From: Chryseobacterium gilvum
GTDB lineage: Bacteria > Bacteroidota > Bacteroidia > Flavobacteriales > Weeksellaceae
Assembly (NCBI RefSeq): GCF_025628965.1
Contig: NZ_JAOTEN010000003.1
Coordinates: forward strand, 1-64,000
Length of the DNA stretch: 64,000 bases
Direction of reading: 5' to 3'
In this document: piece by piece, positions 10,648 through 55,037 of the stretch
How the letters are laid out: every line of letters begins with the position of its first letter
How positions within the stretch are numbered: position 1 is the first letter of the stretch
The notes under the pieces: generated by a model
The model's input: the letters and a program-made list of their open reading frames with translations, nothing else
Databases searched by the model: none
What the model was told of the DNA's origin: nothing
Made by a program: the position numbers and the translations under genes

Positions 10648-11625
10648 ATGGAAGAAAAAAACAACTACTGCGGTATTGATGTTTCCAGCGAGACGGTAGA
10701 TCTTTATTTTAAAAATAAAGAAGGAAATCTTCAACATTTACAGGTCACAAATACGGTTACCGGATTTCGGAAAATGATCAGATCAGCAGGCCGGGAAACT
10801 CATTTTGTGATGGAAGCTACGGGAGTTTATCACCTACATTTGATTTTCTTTTTGAAGGAACAGAATATTGCTTTTAGTGTTGTGAATGCGCTGCAGATCA
10901 AGCGCTACATCCAGATGCATTTGGAACGTAATAAATCAGACAAAAAAGATGCAAAACGAATCTATGAATATGGTATTGAACGCCGACCTGAAATTTACGC
11001 AATGCCCGATACAGAGTACTTTGAGTGCCGTTCTTTAAATAATGCGATCCATGATCTGACGAAAGAAATTACCAAGTTCAGCAATCAGATTCACAGCATT
11101 AAAAAGTGTCCTTTTGACACAAAAACAATTGAAAAAAGCTTTGAGAAAATCATCAAAAAACTTCGAGAAGAGAAGCAGAATTTAGAGATAATTCTGCAAC
11201 AGAAACTCATTGCCTGGGAAGCAGAAATGTTGAAACTGGTTACCAGCGTAAAAGGCATTGGAAGAAGAGCTGCAGCAGAGCTGATCATCTATACCCAAGG
11301 TTTTAAAGACATGAATTCGTATAAACAATTGATCTCTTATGCAGGTCTGAGTCCCACAGAATATCGGAGCGGAAGCAGCATCCGTGGACGGGCTCGTATC
11401 TGCAAACAGGGCGGAAAACAGTTGCGCCATATTCTGTACATGTGTGCCCTAAATGCGAAGAAAACCAATGCTCAATGTAAGACCCTTTTTGACCGACTGG
11501 TAGAGAAAGGAAAAAACAAAAAAGCAGCTGTAATTGCAGTGTGCAACAAGCTGCTCAAGATTGTATTTGGGGTAGTAAAAAACAAAACAGCGTACCTGGA
11601 TAATTTTATTGTAAAAAGTGCTTAA
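10648..11625 (+). CDS. IS110-family transposase (DEDD recombinase)
   Basis: 325 residues, the usual family size. The N-terminal RuvC-like DEDD domain shows GIDVSSE (Asp10), MEATGVY and NKSDKKDAKRI. The C-terminal Transposase_20 domain has VKGIGRRAAAELI and LISYAGLSPTEYRSGSS with the conserved Ser near SGSSIRG. It is intact, with no frameshift. IS110 enzymes recombine DNA with a bridge RNA made from the element's own non-coding end; here that is the 10470-10620 region just upstream. The start ATG at 10648 is preceded by an A-rich leader typical of Bacteroidota. Confidence 0.93.
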   Translation: MEEKNNYCGIDVSSETVDLYFKNKEGNLQHLQVTNTVTGFRKMIRSAGRETHFVMEATGVYHLHLIFFLKEQNIAFSVVNALQIKRYIQMHLERNKSDKKDAKRIYEYGIERRPEIYAMPDTEYFECRSLNNAIHDLTKEITKFSNQIHSIKKCPFDTKTIEKSFEKIIKKLREEKQNLEIILQQKLIAWEAEMLKLVTSVKGIGRRAAAELIIYTQGFKDMNSYKQLISYAGLSPTEYRSGSSIRGRARICKQGGKQLRHILYMCALNAKKTNAQCKTLFDRLVEKGKNKKAAVIAVCNKLLKIVFGVVKNKTAYLDNFIVKSA

Positions 11626-31007: not shown

Positions 31008-33893
31008 CTATTTATTATAAAAAACAGCCACCACTTTCAGGTAAGGATTGCCATTGAGACTGGTTAGGTCTTTAAAATACTGGCTGGAATTGTTGAGAAT
31101 CGTTTCGATATCGTATTCTTTGTCCTTCATTCTTTTTTTTACAGAACCAGTGATATTTTTATCTGCAAAATCTAACTGCATTTGTTGTTGTTTGCTTGCT
31201 TGCCAGTTATTGAGTTTTTCTTGATAAACCGCCATTTTTTTCTCCATCTCATATTGCAGTTTATCTTGCTCACGAACCATGTGCAGCTGACGGGCAAAAT
31301 CAATGGCATCGGGCAATATTTCCTGAATTAGTGCTATATCCGAAGTAGGAATATCTAAGGTGTATAAGTTTTCCTGCAGTTTATGTTTCGCTAAAAAATC
31401 TTCAAAAGGCAAAGGTTTTTCTTTTAATCCACCGTTGATGCCCATGGGCACCACAAAAAAATCGGAGAGAATAGATTGCCCCAAATTGTTTGCAACAGTA
31501 CCTTGAATAAGAAAATACGCTGTATCAATTGGTAATTTATCTATTTTAGAAACCAAGGCTACATCTTTGTCCACAGAGGCTTCCAACTGCGTCATCAAAT
31601 ATCGAACAACGGGATGCAACTCATATAATATTTGAAATTTCGCCCATTCACCTTTTTTCTTTCTGGCTTCGGTAATGGCTTTTTGCACATCGTCTTTATC
31701 CAAAGAAAGCTGATAAACACCACCCATTTTATCGGGTTTTGCCTCAGCCGGAATATCATACAAAATACGATTGAGTTCTTTGGTTTGTTTTACTTCCAAA
31801 ATATTGCCTTCAAACTGGGCATCATCATTTTTCAGGTAGCGGTCGGTTTTTAATTGCTCTACCAAAGCTTGATAATAAGCCTTGTCATTTTCGAAGAAAG
31901 ATACATTTGCAGCGATGGGATTTAAGTGTTGCAGTTTGGGTGTTGCATCATCAAACAATGCATCAAAAAGCTCATCGCTCAGTTCTTGCGTTGCAGCGTC
32001 ATTTAAAATATCGGGTTGATTTGCAGCCAAAGCTTTTGTTACCAAATCTTCTTCGGCATTAGAGTCGTACAATTTGTAAACAGATGCCGCATCTCCCAAG
32101 GATTGATACACAGTTTCTTCTTTTTCTTTCAGTTTGTTTACAATGTATAAATCATCCTTTAATCCATCCAAATCTGATTTTGCAATCATGTAATGAATAT
32201 AAGGCGTCTTGGTTTGTCCATAACGGTCTATACGTCCATTTCGCTGTTCCAAAGTAATCAACGACCAGGGAATATCGTAGTTGAACATGTGATTACAGTA
32301 ATAATGCAAGTTGACCCCTTGAGAACCGGCATCGGAAGTCAATAAAATGCGACAATCTGAATCTTCCTTTCCGAAATCTTCAATAATTCGCTGTTGCTCC
32401 ATATCGGTAAGCGAACCGTTAAAATCTGCAATCGCTTTGTCATCCAAGTCAAAATCTTGCTGCAGTTTTCTTTTGAGGGCTTTCAAAGTTTCTATACGCT
32501 CAGCAAAAACAACGATGCGGAAATCTTTTTTTCTTCCGCTCCATTTTAGGCGAATCAATTCGTCTCTAAAAGCCGTGTACTTCCCATCTTGTCCAACTTT
32601 AATAATGATTTGTAATTTATCTTGCAAATTTTCCAGCACTTCCAGATTTTGCTCTGCAATTTCTTCTCTGTCGGTAATATCTTCTAGTTTCTTAATTCTA
32701 TTTCCTACCGAACTCAAAGCTGCCTCAGGCGAAGACATATAAGATTTGAACAAGCCTATGGCAAATAATAAATCTTTTTTCTTGCCGTGTTTGGTTTTTC
32801 TGCCGAACAAATTTTCGATAACATCTTCTTGATTTAAGCCTTGTAATGCTGCAAATTTTATTTTTTGTTGAATTTCTAAGAACTCATTTTCTGCTTGCGT
32901 TAATTCTGCATGAATAGAAACAATTTTTCTTTCCTGAAAATTAGAACGAACTGCTGCGTCATCAATATCATTTTTGAAACGGCGTACATAATATGGAAGA
33001 ATATCATCTTTGGTGTAATTTTGCTCATCCTTAATTGCTAAAGGCTCTATCATGTTAATCAGATTAGCGAAATTTTGCTTTTTACCATTGTGCGGCGTTG
33101 CAGAAGTAAGTACCAAAGATTCGCACTTACTGCTTAGCAATTGAGCTAAACCGCCCCGCAAAGAGCTGGAATTAGCTACAGTGTGGCATTCGTCTATCAC
33201 TATTATATCCCATTTTGTTTTCTCTATATAATGCTGAAATTTAGCGTTATTTTTCAGCGTATCAATGGAAACTATTGTTTTGTCGTAATAATCAAATGGA
33301 TTTTTATTGGCTGGTAATTCTGATTTAATTTTAGAAATCCCTTCAGAGTCTAACCTCACCAATGGAATGGCAAAACGATTCCAAATCTCCTGTTGAAATT
33401 GTGATAAAATAGATTTTAAAGCCAACACCATAATACGTTTTCCTTTACCACGCTTAATCATTTCTGCAAGAAAAATACCTACTTCCACTGTTTTACCCAA
33501 ACCAACGCCATCAGCGATTAGAATTCTAGGTCTTGGCAATTCGAATGCTTTTAGGGTAGGTTCTAATTGATATTCCGACAAATTGAAAGCTGCTTTTTGA
33601 GCAACTGTAATTTGTTTACTGTATATGGATGAATTGCGAATTTGATTTTCTACAAATAATTTTGTTTTTCTGTAACCATAGTCTATATCAGCAACCAGTT
33701 GCGTTTTCTTTGGGTCTAAAACGCGAATTTGCGTGTCTATATTGGTGTCAAAAATATATCTTTTGCTTTTTACTAATTCTGAAATACCTTCTACTTTTAA
33801 AATCCATTTGCCGTTGTTTTCGAGGGCATCATTGATGATAAAATCTTCATCACGATTGGTAATTCTTTGTCCGGGAGTAAAGTTCATTGTCAT
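31008..33893 (-). CDS. SNF2-family helicase (DrmD-like)
   Basis: 961 residues. The motor motifs are ADGVGLGKT (about residue 128), VIDECHT (about 233), LTSATPHNG, LLTSDAGSQGVNLH and EQRNGRIDRYGQTK, typical of SNF2/RapA-type translocases. The C-terminal third is helical and Glu/Lys-rich without a known domain. It begins 2 bp after the stop of a small XRE-type regulator, and its stop is 10 bp before the methylase gene, so it is the first large gene of the operon. A second in-frame ATG two codons on (33887) is possible. Confidence 0.9.
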   Translation of the reverse strand: MTMNFTPGQRITNRDEDFIINDALENNGKWILKVEGISELVKSKRYIFDTNIDTQIRVLDPKKTQLVADIDYGYRKTKLFVENQIRNSSIYSKQITVAQKAAFNLSEYQLEPTLKAFELPRPRILIADGVGLGKTVEVGIFLAEMIKRGKGKRIMVLALKSILSQFQQEIWNRFAIPLVRLDSEGISKIKSELPANKNPFDYYDKTIVSIDTLKNNAKFQHYIEKTKWDIIVIDECHTVANSSSLRGGLAQLLSSKCESLVLTSATPHNGKKQNFANLINMIEPLAIKDEQNYTKDDILPYYVRRFKNDIDDAAVRSNFQERKIVSIHAELTQAENEFLEIQQKIKFAALQGLNQEDVIENLFGRKTKHGKKKDLLFAIGLFKSYMSSPEAALSSVGNRIKKLEDITDREEIAEQNLEVLENLQDKLQIIIKVGQDGKYTAFRDELIRLKWSGRKKDFRIVVFAERIETLKALKRKLQQDFDLDDKAIADFNGSLTDMEQQRIIEDFGKEDSDCRILLTSDAGSQGVNLHYYCNHMFNYDIPWSLITLEQRNGRIDRYGQTKTPYIHYMIAKSDLDGLKDDLYIVNKLKEKEETVYQSLGDAASVYKLYDSNAEEDLVTKALAANQPDILNDAATQELSDELFDALFDDATPKLQHLNPIAANVSFFENDKAYYQALVEQLKTDRYLKNDDAQFEGNILEVKQTKELNRILYDIPAEAKPDKMGGVYQLSLDKDDVQKAITEARKKKGEWAKFQILYELHPVVRYLMTQLEASVDKDVALVSKIDKLPIDTAYFLIQGTVANNLGQSILSDFFVVPMGINGGLKEKPLPFEDFLAKHKLQENLYTLDIPTSDIALIQEILPDAIDFARQLHMVREQDKLQYEMEKKMAVYQEKLNNWQASKQQQMQLDFADKNITGSVKKRMKDKEYDIETILNNSSQYFKDLTSLNGNPYLKVVAVFYNK

Positions 33894-34390: not shown

Positions 34391-36148
34391 TTACGACCTA
34401 AATCCTATTCTTGGTAAGTCATCAATATCTCTTTGTTCCCCTTCCATTTTAGCCTTAATTACTAAATAATTATTCAATTCCTGCAAAGAAACTGATGGTT
34501 TATTATTTTTTATAGTGTCCAAAACTATCGCTTGCGTAATTCTTACATTATCTTTCAATGCTTTTCGTGAAGCTTCGTCACTCAAAAATTTAATGTCGCT
34601 TGAAACATAGTTTTCGGTTGCTTTGGCTAATTCTTCGTAATTCAAACCGATTTCTGTCGGACGTTTTTTTAAATACAATTCAAACATCAATTTTCGAGCA
34701 TCAAAGTCAGGCGGTGGCAAATAAATATGCTTATCTAATCTTCCAGAACGCAAAATTGCAGGGTCAATAGCATTGGGTCTGTTCGTTGCACCAACAATAA
34801 AAATTCCGTCTTCTCCAGAGTTATTCATCTGTGCTAAAAATTCATTAACTGCACTAGTATTCATATGACTAATATTGGAAGTGTCTCTGCTCGGAACAAG
34901 TGCATCTAATTCGTCGATGAAAATTATACTTGGTGCATTTTCTCTTGCTTCATCAAACAAATTTTTGATATTTTCCTGTGAAGCATTCACCCACTTACTT
35001 TGAATATCTGACGGTTTGATTTGGTAAAAATTGAAACCAATTTCTTCCGCCATTTTCTCTGCAAAAAATGTCTTCCCGCAACCTGGCGGACCATACAACA
35101 GCATTCCATTTGGAATTGTTAAACCATATTCTGCATACCGTTCTTTTTGATTTAAAGCATCGATAACATCTAACTTAATGGTGTTTTTTAATTCTTGCAT
35201 TCCTGCAATGGCTGAAAAACCTTTTCCTTTTTTATTTTCTTTGGATTGAATTTTGGCAACCTTTTCTTCTGGAATTGAAAGTTCAACTTCTAATTCTCCG
35301 TTCAATGTTTGGATAAATTCTTTTACAGATTTAAAACGGTTTTCTGCTTTTGGCTGTAATGCTTTTCGGATGATGTTTTGTGTTTGCTCGTCTATCTTAT
35401 CAGAAAACTTTAAAGGTTTTTTTCTTTCGTCTAAAATGACATCTTCTAATTGTATTTTATCGGATTTGTATTTTGAAATTTCAATAAAATAAGGTGGTAA
35501 ACCTGTCAGTAAATGATAATACAATGCACCAACAGAATAAATATCGCTTTGGAATGAAAAGACTTTATTAAAAGTTTCGTTTGCTGTGTAGAATAAATTT
35601 AAACCGTCTTTCAGAAAATCTTTGTTGGATTGTTTTAAAAAACGAGCATATCCAAAATCTATAATTTTTGGAATGGTAACTTTGCCTGATAAATCTAACA
35701 TTACATTTTGGTTGGTAATGTCGTTGTGAATGATTTGTTTGTTGTGTAGATAATTCAAACCATTTAAAACACTCAAAACAATACTTTTTGCTTCATATAA
35801 ATCCAACGTGTTTTCACGTTTCATTTTATCCGCTAAAGTCTCGCCACTTATAAAATCCAACAACACATAAGCCAATTTTTGGTTGTCAATTACTATATTT
35901 CCATTATCGGTGTACTTTACCAAATTTGAATGCTTAATTTGTTTTAGCATTTCGATTTCCAAAATTTCACCACTTTCTGTAAACTGTGTACGATGCAGTT
36001 TTGCGAAGTCAAAAAGTTTCAGAAGTTTGGTTTGTTTCGCTGCATTTTGTACACGATATGTTTCGGCATAGTTTCCTTTTTTCAGAAAGAAGCTAACCGA
36101 ATATTTGTCGTCAACGATTTGACCTTTTGTTAGTATGGATTTACTCAT
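34391..36148 (-). CDS. Ser/Thr protein kinase fused to AAA ATPase
   Basis: 585 residues. The N-terminal ~270 form a eukaryotic-type kinase: YVLLDFISGETLADKM, catalytic loop IIHNDITNQNV (HND in place of HRD, about residue 138) and IDFGYARFL. The C-terminal half is a classical AAA domain of the Cdc48/Vps4 type: LYGPPGCGKT (about 354), FIDELDALVPSRD, VGATNRPNAIDPAI and LRSGRLDKHI. The fusion suggests a signalling-controlled unfoldase. It is the last gene of the Hsp70 operon and overlaps the preceding membrane gene by 8 bp. A target could be a protein complex disassembled by AAA and Hsp70 together (inference). Confidence 0.9.
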   Translation of the reverse strand: MSKSILTKGQIVDDKYSVSFFLKKGNYAETYRVQNAAKQTKLLKLFDFAKLHRTQFTESGEILEIEMLKQIKHSNLVKYTDNGNIVIDNQKLAYVLLDFISGETLADKMKRENTLDLYEAKSIVLSVLNGLNYLHNKQIIHNDITNQNVMLDLSGKVTIPKIIDFGYARFLKQSNKDFLKDGLNLFYTANETFNKVFSFQSDIYSVGALYYHLLTGLPPYFIEISKYKSDKIQLEDVILDERKKPLKFSDKIDEQTQNIIRKALQPKAENRFKSVKEFIQTLNGELEVELSIPEEKVAKIQSKENKKGKGFSAIAGMQELKNTIKLDVIDALNQKERYAEYGLTIPNGMLLYGPPGCGKTFFAEKMAEEIGFNFYQIKPSDIQSKWVNASQENIKNLFDEARENAPSIIFIDELDALVPSRDTSNISHMNTSAVNEFLAQMNNSGEDGIFIVGATNRPNAIDPAILRSGRLDKHIYLPPPDFDARKLMFELYLKKRPTEIGLNYEELAKATENYVSSDIKFLSDEASRKALKDNVRITQAIVLDTIKNNKPSVSLQELNNYLVIKAKMEGEQRDIDDLPRIGFRS

Positions 36149-36861: not shown

Positions 36862-39384
36862 TTATCCTACCAAAACAGAATCATCTCCACTTGGTTTTTC
36901 ATCGTTTGGCAATAAATTGATTAAGTCAATAACTATAGGGTGTAAATCCTTTGTAGTTGGATTTTCCCCGATTTGTTGCAAACCTTCATTTAGCAATTGT
37001 CTTGCTCTGTTGCTGTCTTTCCAATGGTAAGAACCAAAATTTTGATTGTGTTGTCTAATGAAATTAATAAGTTGATAAACCAAAGTAAGCTGTACAAACA
37101 AAGAACTTATTTCAGAAAATAAATGTTTACCAATTTTAATATCCTGCGTTTTCAAAACCTCTTCTAACTGGTTTTTCAATTGATTTACGACTTGTGTTGA
37201 GTCTTCATTTCCAAAGTCTTTATTGGCTTTCTCTAATCTATAAAATTCATCTTTTAATTCTTCTTCTAATTTTGGCCATTCTGTAGTTTCACTTAATTCA
37301 TCAATAGTTTTAAGCGTTTTTCTAAGGTTCGTAAGAACTTCTTGTTTGCTGTCAACATCGTTTTTGTTGTTTTCAAACTTCTTTTCTAAGTCAGCAATTT
37401 CAGTTTCAGCTTTTTGAACTTTGTCAGTGCTGACACCTTCGTCTTTTAATTCTTCGATGCTTCCTTTTGCTTTACGGATTTCGTTGGATAGCCAGCTTGT
37501 ACTAATTGTTGAGATTGTTCTTTCAACATTAGCTTCATAAGAAAAATCTAAGTATGGAAAATACACTGTAACCGTAATTTGTTCTGATCTATCTACATTT
37601 ACAGTCAAATCTACATCGCTATTTTGGGGAAGCAATGCAGGTAATTCTGCTCCGCTTATGATGATGTCAGTAACGTGATTATTATGAATAGCTCTTGTTC
37701 CTTCTGCTTCGTGTTCTCCTTCGTAAATTGGGATTTTAATAAAATCAGATTCCATTCCTGGACGGATTTGTTTCTGAGTTCTTAATCCATTTCTTGTCCC
37801 AACCGCTGGAATCGACTTGTTTTTCTCCAGATTTTTTAAAGTTTCAAAAACAATTTTACCAGATTCTCTTTTCTTAATTTCAATTCCAAAATTATAAGCT
37901 AGTGTTGCGCTACCAATTTTAGAACCTTGAATTACGGTAAATTCTTTGGGTTCACTTTCTAAAACATTTCCTTTATCATCAAATAAGATAATTTCAAAAC
38001 TATTGGTTTTGCCCTCTATTAATTGGGTTTCAATTACTTCTCCAATTTCATTGATTTCAACTTTTCCACTTGACCAAGCTTTATCGCTTCTGGTTATTTC
38101 TGCAAGCACTTTTTCGGGAATTGTTCCTTCGGTTTTATCGGTTAGAATTTTTAATGTAACGAATTCCTCCAATTCCACGGTTGATGCTTCGTGACCGATT
38201 TCGATTTGAATTTTCGATTTATCTCTCGTTTGTTCTTTTATTTGATCTGAAATTTCAACAGTTGAAGCGTATAAAGCTGCACCTTTAGATACAACCGTCA
38301 TTGGGTCAACACTTGTGTCGGGCTTACAGATTTGCTGCTCGAGCATTTTTCTGACAACTGGCGAGAATGTTGGTCCTCCAACTAAAATTAGTGAATCCAA
38401 AGACGAACCTTTTAAATTTTTACGTTCTAAAAGTTTTTTACAAATATCAATGGCTTTCTGGAAAATTGGACCTAAAGCTCTTTCCATATCACTTTGGGTA
38501 ACCGTAATATCTAATTCAAACTCTTCTCCATTATCATCTTCTCCTTTAATAACTCCTAAATCAGATAATATATTTGCTTCATCTTTAAAAGACATTTCAA
38601 TTTTAGCAGTTTCAGCAAACAACTTCATTGCATCACGCAAAATTTGTTTTTTGTTGTCATCTGCTAATATGGAATTTATCTCATAATTTTCTTTGATATA
38701 AGGCAGGATGATTTCATCCACAATTGCTAAATCCAGATTTTTCCCGCCAAGATAATTATCTCCCTCTGTATCAACTACGTTCATAATGCCATCTTCTACT
38801 TTGAGGATAGCGGCATCAAAAGTTCCGCCACCAAAATCGAAAACCAACCAAAAGCCGTCTTTCTTTTTGCTGTCTAAACCATAAGCCATTGCAGCAGCAA
38901 CTGGTTCTTGCAACAATTCTATATGGTTAAAACCAGCCAACTTCGCAGCTTCTCTGGTAGCTTCTTTTTGATTATTACCAAATGCAGCAGGAACAGTAAT
39001 GACAACGGCATTTACATTTTCATCTTTAATAAAAGACTTTAAGGTTTTTAAAACTTCGGCAGATAGTTCTTCTGAATTAAACTCTTTTCCTAAATTGGAA
39101 GTGATGTATTTTTTATCTGTTCCCATTGTTCTTTTGAACTCTATGAAAGAATTGTCGCCTTCTCTTGACCAACTTTGCATCGCAAAAAGTTTCTCTCGTC
39201 CCAATGCGTTGTAAGCACTATCTCCGACTTGAATTGCCTTTTTCTTGTTTATATAAACACAAGATGGAATAGTATCTTTTAATGTATCGGTTTTTTTAAT
39301 GGTAGCTTCTCCATTTTCTATTCTGGAAATAGCCGAATTTGTTGTACCTAAGTCGATACCATAATCTATTTTAGTCCTTGTCAT
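36862..39384 (-). CDS. Hsp70-family protein (DnaK-like) with extended C-terminus
   Basis: 840 residues, longer than DnaK (~640). The actin-like ATPase starts at YGIDLGTTNSAIS. Phosphate loop 2 is LVFDFGGGTFDAAIL, and the adenosine motif is SLILVGGPTFSPVV. A substrate-binding-like beta part follows at about 390-600. The long C-terminal region is helical/coiled-coil (about 640-830) and ends DDSVLVG, without the DnaK EEVD-like tail. It is therefore a specialised Hsp70, not the housekeeping one. Its neighbours are a J-like protein, a membrane coiled-coil protein and a kinase-AAA protein, so it probably works in a dedicated complex. Confidence 0.92.
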   Translation of the reverse strand: MTRTKIDYGIDLGTTNSAISRIENGEATIKKTDTLKDTIPSCVYINKKKAIQVGDSAYNALGREKLFAMQSWSREGDNSFIEFKRTMGTDKKYITSNLGKEFNSEELSAEVLKTLKSFIKDENVNAVVITVPAAFGNNQKEATREAAKLAGFNHIELLQEPVAAAMAYGLDSKKKDGFWLVFDFGGGTFDAAILKVEDGIMNVVDTEGDNYLGGKNLDLAIVDEIILPYIKENYEINSILADDNKKQILRDAMKLFAETAKIEMSFKDEANILSDLGVIKGEDDNGEEFELDITVTQSDMERALGPIFQKAIDICKKLLERKNLKGSSLDSLILVGGPTFSPVVRKMLEQQICKPDTSVDPMTVVSKGAALYASTVEISDQIKEQTRDKSKIQIEIGHEASTVELEEFVTLKILTDKTEGTIPEKVLAEITRSDKAWSSGKVEINEIGEVIETQLIEGKTNSFEIILFDDKGNVLESEPKEFTVIQGSKIGSATLAYNFGIEIKKRESGKIVFETLKNLEKNKSIPAVGTRNGLRTQKQIRPGMESDFIKIPIYEGEHEAEGTRAIHNNHVTDIIISGAELPALLPQNSDVDLTVNVDRSEQITVTVYFPYLDFSYEANVERTISTISTSWLSNEIRKAKGSIEELKDEGVSTDKVQKAETEIADLEKKFENNKNDVDSKQEVLTNLRKTLKTIDELSETTEWPKLEEELKDEFYRLEKANKDFGNEDSTQVVNQLKNQLEEVLKTQDIKIGKHLFSEISSLFVQLTLVYQLINFIRQHNQNFGSYHWKDSNRARQLLNEGLQQIGENPTTKDLHPIVIDLINLLPNDEKPSGDDSVLVG

Positions 39385-42647: not shown

Positions 42648-42956
42648 TTAGGATTTTCTCTTATTTTGATTTTTAAATTTTTCTTCGAGAAGTTTTGTCT
42701 CGTTTATCATTGGATCAAGTTGAGACTGACTTATTTTAGAAAACACGAGAAGTAAATCAATTTCTAAAAAATTACAGATAGCAATAATAATCTCAATCGT
42801 TGTATTGGTTTTTCCTCTTTCTATTCTACCAATGTAATCTTTAGAAAGATCTATCTCGGTTGCTACTTGAAATTGTGATAGTCCTTTTCTTAACCGGTAT
42901 AATTTAAAAATTATTCCGATTTGATTTTTTATTTCTTCAGACTTCCATTTATACAT
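42648..42956 (-). CDS. XRE-family HTH regulator
   Basis: 102 residues. The HTH is GLSQFQVATEIDLSKDYIGR, followed by IERGKTNTTIEIIIAICNFL, a standard Cro/CI-type domain (about residues 10-70). It has a charged C-terminal tail (KLLEEKFKNQNKRKS). It is divergent from the sigma/dCas12f operon, and the ~240 bp between them would hold both promoters, so it may control that operon (inference). It could instead be a stand-alone element regulator. Confidence 0.85.
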   Translation of the reverse strand: MYKWKSEEIKNQIGIIFKLYRLRKGLSQFQVATEIDLSKDYIGRIERGKTNTTIEIIIAICNFLEIDLLLVFSKISQSQLDPMINETKLLEEKFKNQNKRKS

Positions 42957-43021: not shown

Positions 43022-43029
43022 TATATTTG
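43022..43029 (+). promoter_or_regulatory. Possible -7 box upstream of the sigma/dCas12f operon
   Basis: TATATTTG fits the Bacteroidota -7 consensus TAnnTTTG. The upstream TTTG at 43007-43010 is too close for a normal -33 box, so only the -7 match supports this. It lies about 165 bp before the sigma gene and leaves a long leader. Confidence 0.3.
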
Positions 43030-43192
43030 TAATACAATTTACAGTAGTGTAACATTGTGATAGTTCAAAGAAATATAGAAGCTATTGCTTAGATTCTCGA
43101 TTAGAAGATTTGCACTTTTAAAAGGCAAAGAGTCAATAATACGAGTTCCAACCCTTTTCTTATGGATTGTTGGTAGGGAGTTAACGTTATAA

Positions 43193-44077
43193 ATGATACA
43201 AAGAATTCACCTTATTGATTTAAGCAATCCTTCCAGCAAAAATTTGCTAAAAAAACTGCTTATGAAAAGAACAGACTCTTTGCCACGAAAGTTGAGCAAT
43301 CTGCAATTGTACGAACTGCTGAAAAAAGGTAATCCGACCGCTCTCGAAAATATTCATCTTCGCCACAAAAGACTTCTTTTCTGGGTTGGATGGCAGGTGC
43401 TGAAGGATGATTTTGTAGTGGACACCATTGTTCAGGATACCTTCCTTAAATTGTGGCTTCACCGCGACACCATTGAATCGCCTGATCATATTACCGGCTT
43501 TTTACGCTTTGTTATGAAAAGGGATTGTATCGCGTATGTGACTGCCCCAAGAAATAAATTCACCCGCCTGATGGCTTCTCTCGACAGTTTTGAGAATTAT
43601 CAGGAATATCTTGCAGGTTACGACCCATTGAAAGATAAAGAGTATTTACATAGCCAGGAATCCGACCAAAACAAATTCGATGAAGTTAAAAAGGTGTTAC
43701 CCGTTCTGAATCCCAAAAGGAAACACCTGATAGAACTTTGCCTGGAATATGGTTTCCAATACAAACCCATTGCAGAAGCTATGGGAAGCAGCGTGACAGG
43801 CATCAGCACGGAGGTGAGCAAAGCCATAGATGAGCTTCGGAAGATACTTAAAGTCACCTCTTTTGAGCAGCCGGAGGAAAAGGTCTTTGATAAACAAGAG
43901 CAGTCAGAAAAACTCAGCAGTCAGCAGCTCGAAATTATCAAAAGACGGTTTGAACAGAAATCCTCTTTTGCGGCGATTGCAAAGGAACTGCAACTACCGG
44001 AAAAAGAAGTCCATCGGGAATTTCTGTACGCCTATCAGCTTCTGCAAAATCAAAACCGACATGAAACATCCTTTTGA
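43193..44077 (+). CDS. ECF-type sigma factor with extra C-terminal HTH, partner of dCas12f
   Basis: 294 residues (an internal start at 43262, MKRTDSLPRKLS, is also possible). Sigma region 2 spans about 47-115 (ALENIHLRHKRLLFWVGW, IVQDTFLKLWLHRD, GFLRFVMKRD). Region 4 spans about 168-216 (LELCLEYGFQYKPIAEAMGS and TEVSKAIDELRKIL). A further helical HTH-like segment lies at about 240-285 (QQLEIIKRRFEQKSSFAAIA), which ordinary ECF factors lack and which could contact dCas12f. The gene overlaps the start of the dcas12f frame by 17 bp, so the two are translationally coupled. No anti-sigma gene is nearby. This matches the sigma factors that partner nuclease-dead Cas12f in Bacteroidota. Confidence 0.88.
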   Translation: MIQRIHLIDLSNPSSKNLLKKLLMKRTDSLPRKLSNLQLYELLKKGNPTALENIHLRHKRLLFWVGWQVLKDDFVVDTIVQDTFLKLWLHRDTIESPDHITGFLRFVMKRDCIAYVTAPRNKFTRLMASLDSFENYQEYLAGYDPLKDKEYLHSQESDQNKFDEVKKVLPVLNPKRKHLIELCLEYGFQYKPIAEAMGSSVTGISTEVSKAIDELRKILKVTSFEQPEEKVFDKQEQSEKLSSQQLEIIKRRFEQKSSFAAIAKELQLPEKEVHREFLYAYQLLQNQNRHETSF

Positions 44078-45173
44078 TATGGAAAAATCCACGATAACCC
44101 TCACCCGGAAAATTCAGCTGGTGATTGATGTTCCAGCCGATAATAAAAGCCAAATGTGGGAAAAACTCTACCGATATCAGAACCGCTGTTTCCGGGCGGC
44201 TAATCTGATTGTTTCCCATCTGTATGTACATGAAATGATCAAGGATTTCTTTTACCTCACCGAAGACATCCAATACAAGCTGGCTGATGCAAGCAAAGAC
44301 GAAATGGGCATCTTCGACCGTTCAAAAACAAACACTACGTCGCGCCTGGTCTTTGACCGTTTCAAAGGAGAAATCCCCACCGACATTCTGGGATGCCTTA
44401 ACAATACAATTCAATCCACCTTTTCTAAAAACAAAGCAGACTATTGGCAGGGATCACAATCACTGAGGAACTTTAAAAAAGACATTCCTATTCCGCTTCC
44501 GGTGAAATGCATAAGCAAAATGAAGTATGACCCTGACAAGAAAGCGTTTAGTTTCAATATGTTTGCGATTCCTGTCAAAACCTATTTAGGAAGAGATTTC
44601 TCTGATAAACATTTTGTCCTGGAACGGCTGTTAAGAGAAGAGATCAAGCTGTGCAACTCACAGGTCCAGCTTAAAAACGGTAAAATCTTTTGGCTGGCCG
44701 TCTTTGAATTTGAAAAGGAAGACCACCGTTTAAAACCCGAAATCATTGCAGAAGCTTCTTTGTCTCTGGAACATCCAATCGTTGTAAAAGCCAACAATGT
44801 GCGATTGAATATTGGTTCGAAAGAGGAATTCCTCTACCGCAGGCTGGCAATTCAGGCCAGTAATAAAAGGATTCGAGCCGGAGTAGTTTACTCCCGTTCA
44901 GGACATGGAACCAAACGGAAACAGAAGGCACTGCAGAAAACAGAGAATCTGGAAAACCGTTTTGTCAGTCACCATCTTCATCTGTACAGCCGTCAGCTGA
45001 TTGATTTCTGCATCCGGCAGCAGGCGGGCACCCTGATTCTTAAAGATCAGGAAGACAAAATAGGGATTGCAAAAGAACAGGAGTTTGTACTTCGCAACTG
45101 GAGCTATTATGAACTGCAGACCAAAATAAAATACAAAGCAGAAAAGGCCGGTATCGAATTGATCATCGGATAG
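44061..45173 (+). CDS. Nuclease-dead Cas12f/TnpB homologue (dCas12f), RNA-guided DNA binder
   Basis: 370 residues from ATG 44061 (364 from 44079). The N-terminal WED/REC part has YRYQNRCFRAANLIVSHLYV, NTTSRLVFDRFKGEIP and GSQSLRNFKKDIPIP. Residues 236-262 (LEHPIVVKANN, IGSKEEFLYRRLAIQ) occupy the RuvC-I place, but the catalytic Asp is missing. A basic bridge helix follows (KRKQKALQKTENLENRF). RuvC-II reads AGTLILKDQE (322-331), with Lys where the catalytic Glu belongs. LRNWSYYELQTKIKYKAEKA is present, and the protein then stops, lacking the zinc finger and RuvC-III Asp. It should bind DNA without cutting it. No IS200/605 ends or TnpA are present. Confidence 0.85.
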   Translation: MKHPFDMEKSTITLTRKIQLVIDVPADNKSQMWEKLYRYQNRCFRAANLIVSHLYVHEMIKDFFYLTEDIQYKLADASKDEMGIFDRSKTNTTSRLVFDRFKGEIPTDILGCLNNTIQSTFSKNKADYWQGSQSLRNFKKDIPIPLPVKCISKMKYDPDKKAFSFNMFAIPVKTYLGRDFSDKHFVLERLLREEIKLCNSQVQLKNGKIFWLAVFEFEKEDHRLKPEIIAEASLSLEHPIVVKANNVRLNIGSKEEFLYRRLAIQASNKRIRAGVVYSRSGHGTKRKQKALQKTENLENRFVSHHLHLYSRQLIDFCIRQQAGTLILKDQEDKIGIAKEQEFVLRNWSYYELQTKIKYKAEKAGIELIIG

Positions 45174-45179
45174 TTAAAA

Positions 45180-45285
45180 AATTGAGGGTGCTTGTTAACC
45201 CGTAGGGTGAGGTTTTGAACACTCACTAAATACTGGAAACTGAATAATTTTCCGGTGTATACAACGGCGTGGGTTTCTTTTTTTT
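45180..45285 (+). ncRNA. Candidate guide RNA of the dCas12f system
   Basis: This structured non-coding stretch begins 7 bp after the dcas12f stop. Elements seen: ACCC-GTA-GGGT (45199-45208), GTGAG/CTCAC (45207-45211, 45222-45226), and a larger stem ATAC...GTAT plus GGAAA...TTTCC (45230-45260). TATACAAC ends at 45265 and resembles the end of Cas12f repeats. GGCGTGGGTTTC (45266-45277) and eight Ts (45278-45285) follow. The most economical model is scaffold, then a short guide, then a U-run terminator. The exact repeat/guide border is inferred, and the 5' leader of the sigma gene is an alternative place for the RNA. Confidence 0.45.
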
Positions 45286-52344: not shown

Positions 52345-53484
52345 TTACAATTCAATATTCAGTTCCGGGATAATCTCCGCAGCCTCTTTCATTTTGCTAT
52401 CCACAATTTTTGCATAGATCTGAGTCGTTCTCAATTCTCGGTGCCCTAATCTTTTTGAAACCGTGTAAATATCTGCACCATTTTCCAAGAGTAAAACAGC
52501 ATTTGTATGTCGAGCTGAATGAAAGGTAATATGTTTGGGAACCGCAGCACGATTACACCAGCGGATAATTTCAGTATTGTAGGTCATTCCATATTTTAAG
52601 CCTTTGAAAACTCTTTCTTGGGGATTTTGTCTTTCGCCCAACAATTCTCTGGCTTGTTTTGAAATATAAAGATATTCTACACCCTCTGTTTTTTCTTGTC
52701 GGAAATTGACTCTAGAAATATCACCTTCATCACGGACTTCTTTCCAAATCAAAGTATTGATATCCGACCAACGTAATCCTGATAAACAAGAAAAAAGAAA
52801 AGCTTTTTTCAAAACCGGGTATTTACATTCCGCTTTTGCTAAACGTTGTAATTCATCAAAAATCAGATATTCTCTTTGGCTTTCTGCCTGCTCAAATGAT
52901 TTAATTTTTGCTGCGTAATTTATTGTCAAATATCCATTATCGAAAGCATATCTAAGTGCAGCTTTAAACTTGTTGAAGTAAGAATACTTGGAATTTTGAG
53001 AAAGAGGTAAATCACTCTTACTGATTGCATCCTTCTCAAAGTATTTCCGGACTTTTTTAATGAAAAATTCATCAATCTCCTCAAAAGTTAAATTCTTTGG
53101 AACCACTTTTTTCAAATGCTGGTAAGTAGAAAACCAATTACCATAATTATTTGACGAATCGAGCGTTCGTTTTTCCTCAGCAAGATCAGCGAAGAAATTT
53201 AAAAATACCCGTTTAGCTTTCGCAGTATTTTTCAACTCAAATCTTCCTTGAGCATATTCAGCTTTTCGAATTGAAATTACATTTTCTGCAAATTCCAAAG
53301 CTTCTTTATTTTCTTTTTTTTCTTTGGCAGTCTTTGGATCTATAATTAGATAGGTATCTAAATTCTCAAAATTTCTCAGATGCTTTCTTTTTCCGTCATC
53401 AGTAATTTCTGAACCACGGTAAAACTCGATTGACAAACTAATCCTTCCGTCCTTTAATTTTCTTTGAATAAGTGATATTTTCAT
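52345..53484 (-). CDS. Tyrosine recombinase (integrase) of the element
   Basis: 379 residues in the Bacteroidota style: an Arm-DNA-binding N-terminus, a SAM-like core-binding domain (about 100-205) and a catalytic domain. The tetrad is visible as CLSGLRWSDI (Arg), HSARHTNAVLL (His-x-x-Arg), LGHRELRTTQIY (His and the nucleophile Tyr). It lies 168 bp inside the mnmE-proximal att core and would integrate the element into the mnmE 3' end and excise it. Confidence 0.92.
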   Translation of the reverse strand: MKISLIQRKLKDGRISLSIEFYRGSEITDDGKRKHLRNFENLDTYLIIDPKTAKEKKENKEALEFAENVISIRKAEYAQGRFELKNTAKAKRVFLNFFADLAEEKRTLDSSNNYGNWFSTYQHLKKVVPKNLTFEEIDEFFIKKVRKYFEKDAISKSDLPLSQNSKYSYFNKFKAALRYAFDNGYLTINYAAKIKSFEQAESQREYLIFDELQRLAKAECKYPVLKKAFLFSCLSGLRWSDINTLIWKEVRDEGDISRVNFRQEKTEGVEYLYISKQARELLGERQNPQERVFKGLKYGMTYNTEIIRWCNRAAVPKHITFHSARHTNAVLLLENGADIYTVSKRLGHRELRTTQIYAKIVDSKMKEAAEIIPELNIEL

Positions 53485-53651: not shown

Positions 53652-53666
53652 TTATTTCCCGATACA
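53652..53666. repeat. attR: mnmE 3'-end core
   Basis: TTATTTCCCGATACA, the complement of the last codons (CIGK) and stop of mnmE, is repeated exactly at 7949-7963. Confidence 0.85.
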
Positions 53667-55037
53667 AAATTTAGAAAAAATATTCCCCAACACTTCATCA
53701 TTTGTAACTTCACCGGAAATTTCACCGAGATGTTCCAGAGCATTTCTCAATTCGTAAGCCAGCAATTCTGTGGAAATCTGAAATGTTACCGCTTCTTTTA
53801 CTTTGTGTACGGCATCAAGTGATTTTTGTAAAGCTTCGTAGTGGCGCTGATTGGTAATGACAATATTATTTTCTCCGGCTTTTAACTGCTCGACGTAGGA
53901 AGAAAGCTCATTTTTCAAATCCTGAATATTTTGGTTTTCTAGCGCAGAAATAGTAATAAAATCGAAACTATGATTGATTTCTGATCTGAATATATTTTCT
54001 ACCTGATTGTACTTGTCAGGAGAAACTTCATCAATTTTCGTAGCACAGATAATGACTTTCAAATCCTCTCTAAGTAAAGATGCAATCATCTCGATATCTT
54101 CTGAAAAATCTTCTGTTGCAGCATCAGCCAGATAAACAAGAATGTTTGCTTTTTCTACTTTTTCTTTGGCCTTTTTAACGCCGATTGCCTCTATCTCATC
54201 CTGGGTTTCGCGCAGTCCTGCCGTATCGATCAGCCGAAAAGCATGCCCTTTAAGATGCAGAATTTCTTCAATGGTATCTCTGGTTGTTCCGGCGATGCTG
54301 CTTACAATTGCCCTTTCTTCTTTAAGAAGGGCATTCAGCAGAGTAGATTTCCCGGCATTGGGTTTTCCGATAATGGCGACCGCGGTTCCGTTTTTAATGG
54401 CATTTCCGTACTGGAAACTTTCTATAAGTGAGTTTAATTTTAATTCAATCTTTTTAAGCAAGATATTGAGAGCCGAACGGTCTGCAAATTCCACATCTTC
54501 TTCGGCAAAATCGAGCTCCAACTCAATTAATGATACAAAATTCAATAGATCTGTCCTTAAAATGGATATTTCATTTGTAATCCCACCTTTTAACTGACTG
54601 ATTGCTACTTTTCTTGATGCCTCATTTTCTGATGCAATCACATCGGCTATCGCTTCAGCCTGAGAAAGGTCGATTCTCCCGTTAATAAAAGCACGAAGCG
54701 TAAATTCACCTGCTTTTGCCATCCTTGCTCCGTTTTTGATTAAAACCTCAAGAATGCGTTTGGCAATATGCGGAGAGCCGTGAAAAGCAATTTCTACCGA
54801 ATTTTCTGTAGTGAAACTTTTTGGGGCTAAAAACAGAGAAAGCATAACCTCATCAATCACTTCATCCCCATCCATAAAATATCCGTAGTGAATTGTATGA
54901 GAAGGCTGCTTTTCAAGTTTTTTCGACGGAAAAGACTTTTGCACAACGTTCAAAGCTTCATTTCCGGAAACTCTTATAATTCCTAAAGCGCCTACTCCAT
55001 TCGCTGTTGCGAGTGCACAAATAGTATCATTATTCAT
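53652..55037 (-). CDS. mnmE: tRNA modification GTPase MnmE (TrmE)
   Basis: 461 residues, full family length. An N-terminal folate-binding domain is followed by a central GTPase with GKPNAGKSTLLNALL (about residue 225), AGTTRDT, DTAGLRET and ATKID. The C-terminus ends with the conserved FCIGK. With MnmG it makes the 5-carboxymethylaminomethyl modification on wobble uridine. The island's attachment core is exactly the last 15 bp of this gene, so the reading frame is unchanged by integration. Confidence 0.97.
   Translation of the reverse strand: MNNDTICALATANGVGALGIIRVSGNEALNVVQKSFPSKKLEKQPSHTIHYGYFMDGDEVIDEVMLSLFLAPKSFTTENSVEIAFHGSPHIAKRILEVLIKNGARMAKAGEFTLRAFINGRIDLSQAEAIADVIASENEASRKVAISQLKGGITNEISILRTDLLNFVSLIELELDFAEEDVEFADRSALNILLKKIELKLNSLIESFQYGNAIKNGTAVAIIGKPNAGKSTLLNALLKEERAIVSSIAGTTRDTIEEILHLKGHAFRLIDTAGLRETQDEIEAIGVKKAKEKVEKANILVYLADAATEDFSEDIEMIASLLREDLKVIICATKIDEVSPDKYNQVENIFRSEINHSFDFITISALENQNIQDLKNELSSYVEQLKAGENNIVITNQRHYEALQKSLDAVHKVKEAVTFQISTELLAYELRNALEHLGEISGEVTNDEVLGNIFSKFCIGK

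Follow-up and report, generated by a model that had tools for sequence, protein, structure and literature searches.

A dCas12f–sigmaE unit of Chryseobacterium gilvum whose guide RNA is probably aimed at an attenuator-like leader

In a 64,000-nucleotide stretch of Chryseobacterium gilvum DNA (contig NZ_JAOTEN010000003.1, positions 1 to 64,000; hereafter the window), the gene for an extracytoplasmic function (ECF)-type sigma factor is followed, adjacent and in the same direction, by the gene for a nuclease-dead Cas12f homologue (dCas12f). We consider it likely that the two genes form a dCas12f–sigmaE RNA-guided transcription unit with a guide aimed at one strand, arm b, of a structured leader, and that transcription begun inside the leader would bypass its terminator. 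The homology, the guide RNA, the leader structure, the match between guide and leader and a deletion in the leader were all established in silico. The features of the locus are as follows.

42648..42956, - strand: small helix-turn-helix (HTH) regulator gene, XRE-type (Pfam HTH_3, E 8e-13), divergent from the sigma leader
43026..43057, + strand: promoter-like sequence of the leader (TTTG ... TAACATTG), read from the sequence
43059..43169, + strand: decayed leader copy upstream of the sigma gene (model R1); a deletion has removed arm a, arm b and the 3' strand of the outer helix
43193..44077, + strand: ECF-type sigma factor open reading frame (ORF), 294 aa; likely start at 43262
44061..45173, + strand: dCas12f ORF, 370 aa; likely start at 44079, giving 364 aa
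45183..45265, + strand: guide RNA scaffold (alignment, then covariance model R2)
45266..45285, + strand: guide (GGCGTGGGTTTCTTTTTTTT), directly after ..ATACAAC; its 3' end is uncertain owing to a T run

Results

The protein pair

Both ORFs are present where the first-pass annotation had placed them. In phmmer searches against PDB sequences, the dCas12f-like protein matches 9n9c, 'Nuclease-deactivated Cas12f' (E 9.4e-157, residues 7–370), and the sigma factor matches chain C of 9n9q, 'RpoE' (E 6.7e-77, residues 40–287), with E values that are far beyond chance. Over its first 100 residues, 9n9c is identical (100/100) to the protein encoded at the Allomuricauda (Flagellimonas) taeanensis locus L255, and the A. 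taeanensis dCas12f–sigmaE system (PDB 9n9c, 9n9m, 9n9o and 9n9q) shares with the present locus both proteins, the gene order and a downstream scaffold. Judged by this homology, the pair is a further case of an already solved system. The early comparison with reported dCas12f–ECF sigma pairs therefore holds, since both proteins are homologous to one solved complex.

Pfam and NCBIfam place the sigma ORF in the sigma-70 family with ECF-type matches. Pfam detects Sigma70_r2 and region-4 matches at residues 164–212 and 240–275; by the latter match, the C-terminus is a second region-4-like domain. The Cas12f-like ORF is TnpB/Cas12f-like under the curated cut-offs of both databases (NCBIfam guided_TnpB, 64.8 of 100 bits) and is matched by the PADLOC Cas12f profile (E 1.6e-52). 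The residue alignment to the 'Cas12f Effector' chain 9nzo, in which both catalytic residues are present, revealed Ser233 at the RuvC-I Asp and Lys328 at the RuvC-II Glu. The alignment ends 92 residues short of the chain end, and the RuvC-III and zinc part is absent, which bears out the catalytic losses proposed from the sequence. The intact RuvC triad that characterizes CRISPR type V-F was thus not found in the dCas12f-like protein in this alignment. Met7 (44079) is invariant in 13/13 aligned sequences (the query and 12 relatives), and the solved 9n9c chain begins at the same position. The likelier protein is therefore 364 aa long: the 370-residue ORF first described stands, and its 17-bp overlap with the sigma gene, which hinges on the start codon, would disappear. 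The sigma gene probably starts at 43262, as judged from the ORF of one relative. Both ORFs are intact, and the dCas12f protein shares 90–93% identity with the uninterrupted copies of three further genomes (L002–L004). Among 68 candidates from viral contigs, no relative of the dCas12f protein was found.

The guide RNA

A guide RNA that the first-pass annotation had missed is encoded immediately downstream of dCas12f (45183–45285). Alignment of the DNA behind dCas12f from 19 loci of the genus revealed an RNA-like block ending in ..ATACAAC (..ACAGC in two), followed by GGCGTGGG, which is present in 19/19 as the guide core, and a T-rich tail. The covariance model R2 was built from 30 guide RNA units, with 2/15 pairs changed on both sides. 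It finds a single match in this genome at E <= 0.01 (45183–45265; scaffold 74 bits), at least one unit in all 16 genomes with dCas12f that were scanned, and no unit in six genomes lacking dCas12f (0/6). The proposed reading as an RNA-guided activator is thus supported by the homology to the solved complex together with the scaffold behind the gene. The reported lack of a nearby CRISPR array also agrees with our data, which show a single scaffold unit in the genome and, between 9000 and 55100, direct repeats of at least 15 nt in two copies only.

A protein profile collected 77 named homologous loci from Echinicola, Weeksellaceae and Flavobacteriaceae. Besides the window, R2 matches 91 units in these loci, with at least one in each (77/77), and several loci hold two or three units with differing guides. 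The guide starts with (G)GCGTGGG in 65/77 loci, and the commonest first 12 nt are GGCGTGGGCTCT (19/91 units). Neither the guide RNA nor the leader described below is matched by Rfam 15 at the gathering score, and the window contains no such match; across 11 loci holding leaders or guide RNA, only two tRNAs in L255 exceed it.

In two loci, L231 (5115–5572) and L237 (5127–5528), a single dCas12f gene is followed by three guide RNAs in tandem whose guides differ, and the third guide is GGCGTGGGCTCA in both. A further unit (G011:C22:504406–504474, L299; R2 78 bits) lies on a contig with no detected dCas12f match and is possibly an orphan, trans-acting guide RNA. Two apparent targets, a perfect 18-nt guide match in Galbibacter L275 and a match at position 5341 of L231, were rejected, as they proved to be guide RNA units themselves.

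The leader RNA

A search for GGCGTGGGYTCTT, allowing one mismatch, in 15 dCas12f-containing genomes of the genus returned guide RNAs, scattered sites and, in 12/15, the sequence GGCGTGGGCTCTC. This sequence lay inside a conserved element wherever it was inspected and is not found in the window's genome, G040 or G059. Scanned with a 175-nt query, the element is present, whole or in part, in 49/60 genomes of the genus, comprising 15/15 with and 34/45 without dCas12f, which indicates that it does not depend on dCas12f.

The predicted fold is supported by covariation. RNAalifold on 27 leader copies gave the helix ACTGGTA/TACCAGT, lengthened by a variable helix. A covariance model of the leader (R1) was then used to gather diverged copies, and 80 longer matches were taken from the genus scan. 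When 80 sequences were aligned to R1, 98.1% of the paired cells of the stored structure could pair and 20/29 pairs were changed on both sides, against 86.0% and 9.3 pairs in shuffles. An alternative pairing of arms b and c, outside R1, has 96.5% paired cells and 8/11 pairs changed on both sides, against 91.7% and 2.8 pairs. The observed values were reached by 0/500 shuffles in either case, and when the partner strands were slid, both measures were strongly lower and none reached the observed values. Arm b pairs with a or with c, never with both, and a T-rich sequence follows c, which makes the leader resemble an attenuator. The element thus looks like a structured leader of about 165 nt with a terminator-like b:c form. 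As in attenuators and riboswitch-like 5' leaders, two exclusive helices share one strand and the second is followed by a T run; unlike those, this leader is not in Rfam 15, and its switching arm is shared with a CRISPR-like guide. Among the matches listed in a literature search, none is relevant to a leader RNA before SusC genes.

The leader is accompanied by a recurring gene arrangement. A divergent ORF of at least 60 aa starts 40–260 bp upstream of all 58 sigma leaders (57 relatives and the window) and of 77/80 copies from the genus scan; the 11 divergent proteins tested by Pfam (10 and that of the window) are all HTH proteins, some below the curated cut-off. The first ORFs downstream of leaders in the genus include SusC-like TonB receptors (Pfam on three across all leaders studied: L086, L276 and L315), thioredoxin-like proteins (Pfam on one) and a family of about 174–190 aa of which the one member tested has no Pfam match. 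Across the order, R1 matches 43/196 genomes; dCas12f occurs in 10, and the leader is found in 10/10 of these, a coincidence confounded by kinship and by the training set. Bacteroidota promoters have the consensus TTTG/TAnnTTTG, and most aligned relatives carry TTTG ... TAA(C/T)TTTG at the same position of the leader.

Several further arrangements were noted. Modules of HTH gene, attenuator leader and cargo with differing HTH proteins occur in L086–L165 and L276–L289, from the genus and from other members of the order, in many genomes without dCas12f. A diverged leader class (L179–L198, L283–L285 and L289) is followed, mostly after some 200–600 bp, by small genes for secreted or lipoprotein-like products; some of its copies stand beside transposase-like ORFs, and arm b is near GGCGTGGGC in most. 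In the Flavivirga algicola genome G254, three leaders (L321, L324 and L326; the leader part ends near 1576) are cut between arms a and b, at the junction of GCTCACGT and ATTCTATG. Behind the cut follows a 331-aa transposase ORF (Pfam on one: IS110 family, PF02371/PF01548). The same junction string occurs at a contig edge in L327 and L329 of this genome, and L327 also has the b half after the insert. An IS110-family element thus seems to land in the leader; such elements are themselves probably RNA-guided.

Match between guide and leader

By R1, a full leader stands upstream of the sigma gene on the same strand in 57/77 named loci, A. taeanensis L255 included; the remaining 20/77 yielded no sigma leader by this model, except for a fragment in L211. 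The distance from the sigma leader to the next ORF of at least 200 aa has a median of 93 bp and a range of 39–362 bp (56/57 resolved), and leader, sigma-size ORF, dCas12f and guide RNA follow in the same order across the named loci. With R2 units, the best 16-nt match of the guide in the sigma leader falls at element position 80–83, which is arm b, in 41/57 loci, or in 42/57 if one hand-added Robertkochia unit is counted. That guide, GTGTGGG after a shortened repeat end that R2 does not match, agrees with its own leader at 14/16; as the unit was added by hand, this is weaker support than the figure suggests. The cleanest cases are Sinomicrobium and Flavivirga, with guides that match their own sigma leader at 15/16 after a 5'-G, and Snuella at 14/16 (L260, L262 and L263). 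All five leader copies of Sinomicrobium weinanense (5/5) match their own guide at 14–15/16 after a 5'-G.

The sigma genes of L252, L275, L259 and L270 have no leader of this kind. Another hairpin-like region (..AAAGCCAAAGAACCC..GGATACCC..) lies upstream of them, possibly a second leader type; by eye, it resembles the stretch that the A. taeanensis guide matches before a TonB-receptor gene (L315:1780–1930).

In this genome the sigma leader has lost its target. R1 scores it at 33.7 bits (43078–43169, E 3.5e-4), against 83.6–176.1 bits for the 57 full leaders. About 70 bp are deleted at a junction near 43136/43137, and the same deletion occurs in Epilithonimonas L211; the promoter-like part and the 5' part are retained. 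The 2.99-Mb genome holds one full leader elsewhere (C3:208289–208465, - strand; R1 E 1.5e-14), where a weak reverse-strand match (E 0.54) was disregarded. Apart from the guide itself, GGCGTGGGY occurs twice in the genome, once within an ORF and once as arm b of the C3 leader; the backward control pattern occurs at 20 sites. The C3 leader carries GGCGTGGGCTTCCTATTTAT preceded by G, which is identical to the guide at 16/20 positions after the 5'-G and G-U-compatible at two more, with a perfect 8-nt seed. None of 2000 shuffled guides reached 16 within the C3 element. The deletion and this site suggest that the feedback site has been lost here and that the diverged C3 leader is the likely remaining target. 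The first two ORFs downstream of it are a small one and a lipoprotein-like one; a KAP NTPase (PF07693, E 3e-39; PADLOC candidate PDC-S20, E 3e-132) comes third, followed by another small ORF and then a Clp-like SDH protease. On the upstream side lie a RhuM gene (PDC-S05) and one further ORF that resembles an IS1595-type transposase.

Several observations weigh against a guide aimed at arm b. The guides are related by descent, and the 41/57 matches are consequently not independent. Composition shuffles (best unit per locus, two registers) gave p <= 0.01 in only 28/57, a test that T-rich guides weaken. In seven of the remaining loci the guide is unrelated and its match therefore lies elsewhere, and the Echinicola guides (L256, L257 and L268) match nothing in their leaders. 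The A. taeanensis guide, which belongs to the solved system, agrees with its own sigma leader at 10/16 only (p 0.535). It matches TTGTGGGATACCCG, preceded by G, at 14/20, about 180 bp past a second leader and about 260 bp before the start of a SusC-like TonB receptor; such a position would still put initiation downstream of an attenuator, via a different site. In Snuella, the guide has GCG where the leader has GTG, which shows that a change in one is not always matched by a change in the other. Arm b reads GGCGTGGG in 51/59 copies from genomes without dCas12f and in 19/21 from those with it, which indicates that RNA structure alone can explain its conservation. The base before GGCG is C or A in most Weeksellaceae sigma leaders, which have the 5'-G only with a one-base shift; a 5'-G stands beside the guide match in the leader of the window's own genome, in L258 and in L260–L264. 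Among 191,652 sampled positions of the own genome, two besides the guide itself reach 16/20, one of them being the proposed target. Sites of this quality are therefore not rare without the 8-nt seed, and the case for the C3 leader is carried by the seed and the leader context.

Alternative explanations

The guide RNA might act on the leader transcript rather than on DNA, with its copy of arm b pairing to nascent c (or a) and blocking the terminator while dCas12f serves as an RNA carrier. In 73/79 sequences, arm b can pair at 8/8 positions with the 3' part of the same leader, with compensatory changes, so a copy of b could pair with c as well. The predicted fold also gives the flank of b (CTTAT) a partner immediately ahead of c, and the longer Flavobacteriaceae matches consequently fit the DNA and RNA readings alike. 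We nevertheless regard action on the transcript as quite unlikely: the commonest guide GGCGTGGGCTCT is identical to b over 12 nt, whereas its pairing with c requires a bulge and G-U pairs, and the solved homologue is, by its chain names and its reported function, a DNA-targeting RNA polymerase complex. It is also improbable, slightly more so, that the 3' segment GGCGTGGGYTCTTTTTT is a scaffold part or terminator remnant, with the true guides elsewhere or degenerate and the arm b match due to common origin only. The segment does end in a T run and is nearly invariant in the genus, with unrelated sequence at this place in A. taeanensis, Echinicola and others. Yet it lies directly after the repeat end ..ATACAAC, exactly where other genera differ; no terminator fold beyond chance was detected at the T run (two sequences, z -0.59 and -1.38); and in Sinomicrobium and Flavivirga the 15/16 agreement with the leader extends past the shared core.

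The most serious of these alternatives, although we still hold it to be unlikely, is that the unit is decaying in this genome, with the feedback site deleted, the SusC-type leaders gone, the guide drifted and no function left. The deletion in the sigma leader and the single full leader left in the genome are what such decay would produce, and related genomes contain interrupted or partial dCas12f copies (L006/L021, L019 and L015/L020). On the other side stand the two intact ORFs, with their 90–93% identity to the uninterrupted copies of L002–L004, a scaffold that still scores 74 bits, and a C3 leader that keeps the 5'-G and the perfect 8-nt seed. That the locus encodes an ordinary transposon TnpB or CRISPR Cas12f nuclease beside an unrelated sigma gene can practically be dismissed. 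The sub-cut-off guided_TnpB match would fit such a protein, but the catalytic residues and the C-terminus are missing, the closest solved chain is the dead Cas12f of a sigma complex, and the order of leader, sigma-size ORF, dCas12f and guide RNA recurs in the named loci.

Genomic context in the window

The pair had been assigned to a mobile element, which is supported by a tyrosine recombinase (52345–53484) beside mnmE (53652–55037) and by Toprim, VapE-like and HipA genes in the window. Element ends or attachment-site repeats were looked for and not found, and no insertion sequence (IS) ends or tnpA were noticed among the neighbouring ORFs, for which no dedicated search was made. An IS110-family transposase ORF lies at 10648–11625 (PF01548, E 2e-26). 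Beside the dCas12f unit, a large minus-strand cluster with several very large ORFs extends over 12211–42203 and includes a helicase / kinase-AAA / Hsp70-like group.

31008–33893, - strand: helicase
34391–36148, - strand: protein kinase-AAA protein
36862–39384, - strand: Hsp70-like protein

Discussion

In the mechanism that we favour, the guide aimed at leader arm b, dead Cas12f would bind the guide RNA encoded just behind its own gene, as the structures of the A. taeanensis homologue lead us to expect. Base pairing next to a 5'-G would anchor both sigma factor and RNA polymerase to the target, leader arm b, the partner of a or of c with its T run. A start at or just downstream of b would yield transcripts without the 5' terminator arm, and the downstream genes could be read regardless of the upstream promoter, the presumed HTH regulator and the attenuator. 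The leader before the sigma–dCas12f operon in most relatives would then form a feedback loop, and the leaders before SusC-type uptake operons and other genes of the same genomes a regulon. In C. gilvum, the C3 leader upstream of the small lipoprotein-like gene, the KAP NTPase and the Clp-like protease would be the remaining target. Binding, the initiation point, terminator bypass and the direction of the effect are what we infer from sequence comparison. The study of the A. taeanensis system reportedly found RNA-guided recruitment of polymerase to DNA, a 5'-G motif and a start-site rule, and by analogy with it the normal promoter sequence would be bypassed here as well.

A broader proposal, which we put forward tentatively and hold to be somewhat less than an even chance, is that an RNA-guided sigma factor has taken over a family of HTH/attenuator-leader/cargo modules present in Flavobacteriales and Echinicola, with one guide driving a trans regulon together with its own operon. 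The sigma–dCas12f operon would itself be one such module, its conserved guide copying the switching arm b, and the regulon would comprise operons for SusC-type proteins, secreted proteins and candidate defence functions. In its U-rich 3' half, the guide could form G-U wobble pairs with diverse pyrimidine-rich flanks, which would allow one guide to serve many diverged targets. The module family is apparently widespread and undescribed.

The locus differs from its closest known relatives in several respects. A. taeanensis L255 likewise has a leader of this kind ahead of its sigma gene; the guide here copies leader arm b, whereas the A. taeanensis guide finds its match in the interval from a leader to a SusC-like gene. 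Further, the element that houses the present unit lies at mnmE and bears a recombinase, and the unit's own sigma leader lacks the target. Cas12f (type V-F) nucleases and IS200/IS605 TnpB belong to a common fold family with dCas12f; in contrast to them, RuvC residues and the C-terminal part are missing here, and there is one guide unit rather than an array. TldR proteins, reportedly described by Wiegand et al. in 2024 as TnpB-like nuclease-dead repressors, are not known to have a co-encoded sigma factor. TldR are likewise described as repressors in PMC13418256. The present protein resembles them as a nuclease-dead relative of TnpB/Cas12f put to use in the RNA-guided regulation of transcription, but here a sigma factor is co-encoded and activation would be expected; with the sigma gene adjacent and the dead Cas12f and RpoE of one complex as best solved relatives, the pair falls outside TldR.

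Taken by itself, the protein pair adds another case to a solved system, and it is the natural wiring that would matter. What may be new is the connection between guide and leader, the leader family itself and the fact that this strain has lost the feedback site. If the proposal is correct, the guide RNA acts on a countable, directly testable set of leaders belonging to a structured RNA family not found in Rfam 15, and the reason for bypassing normal promoters would be to jump a built-in terminator. The predicted target in this strain is a candidate anti-phage gene, which would make RNA-guided control of defence testable.

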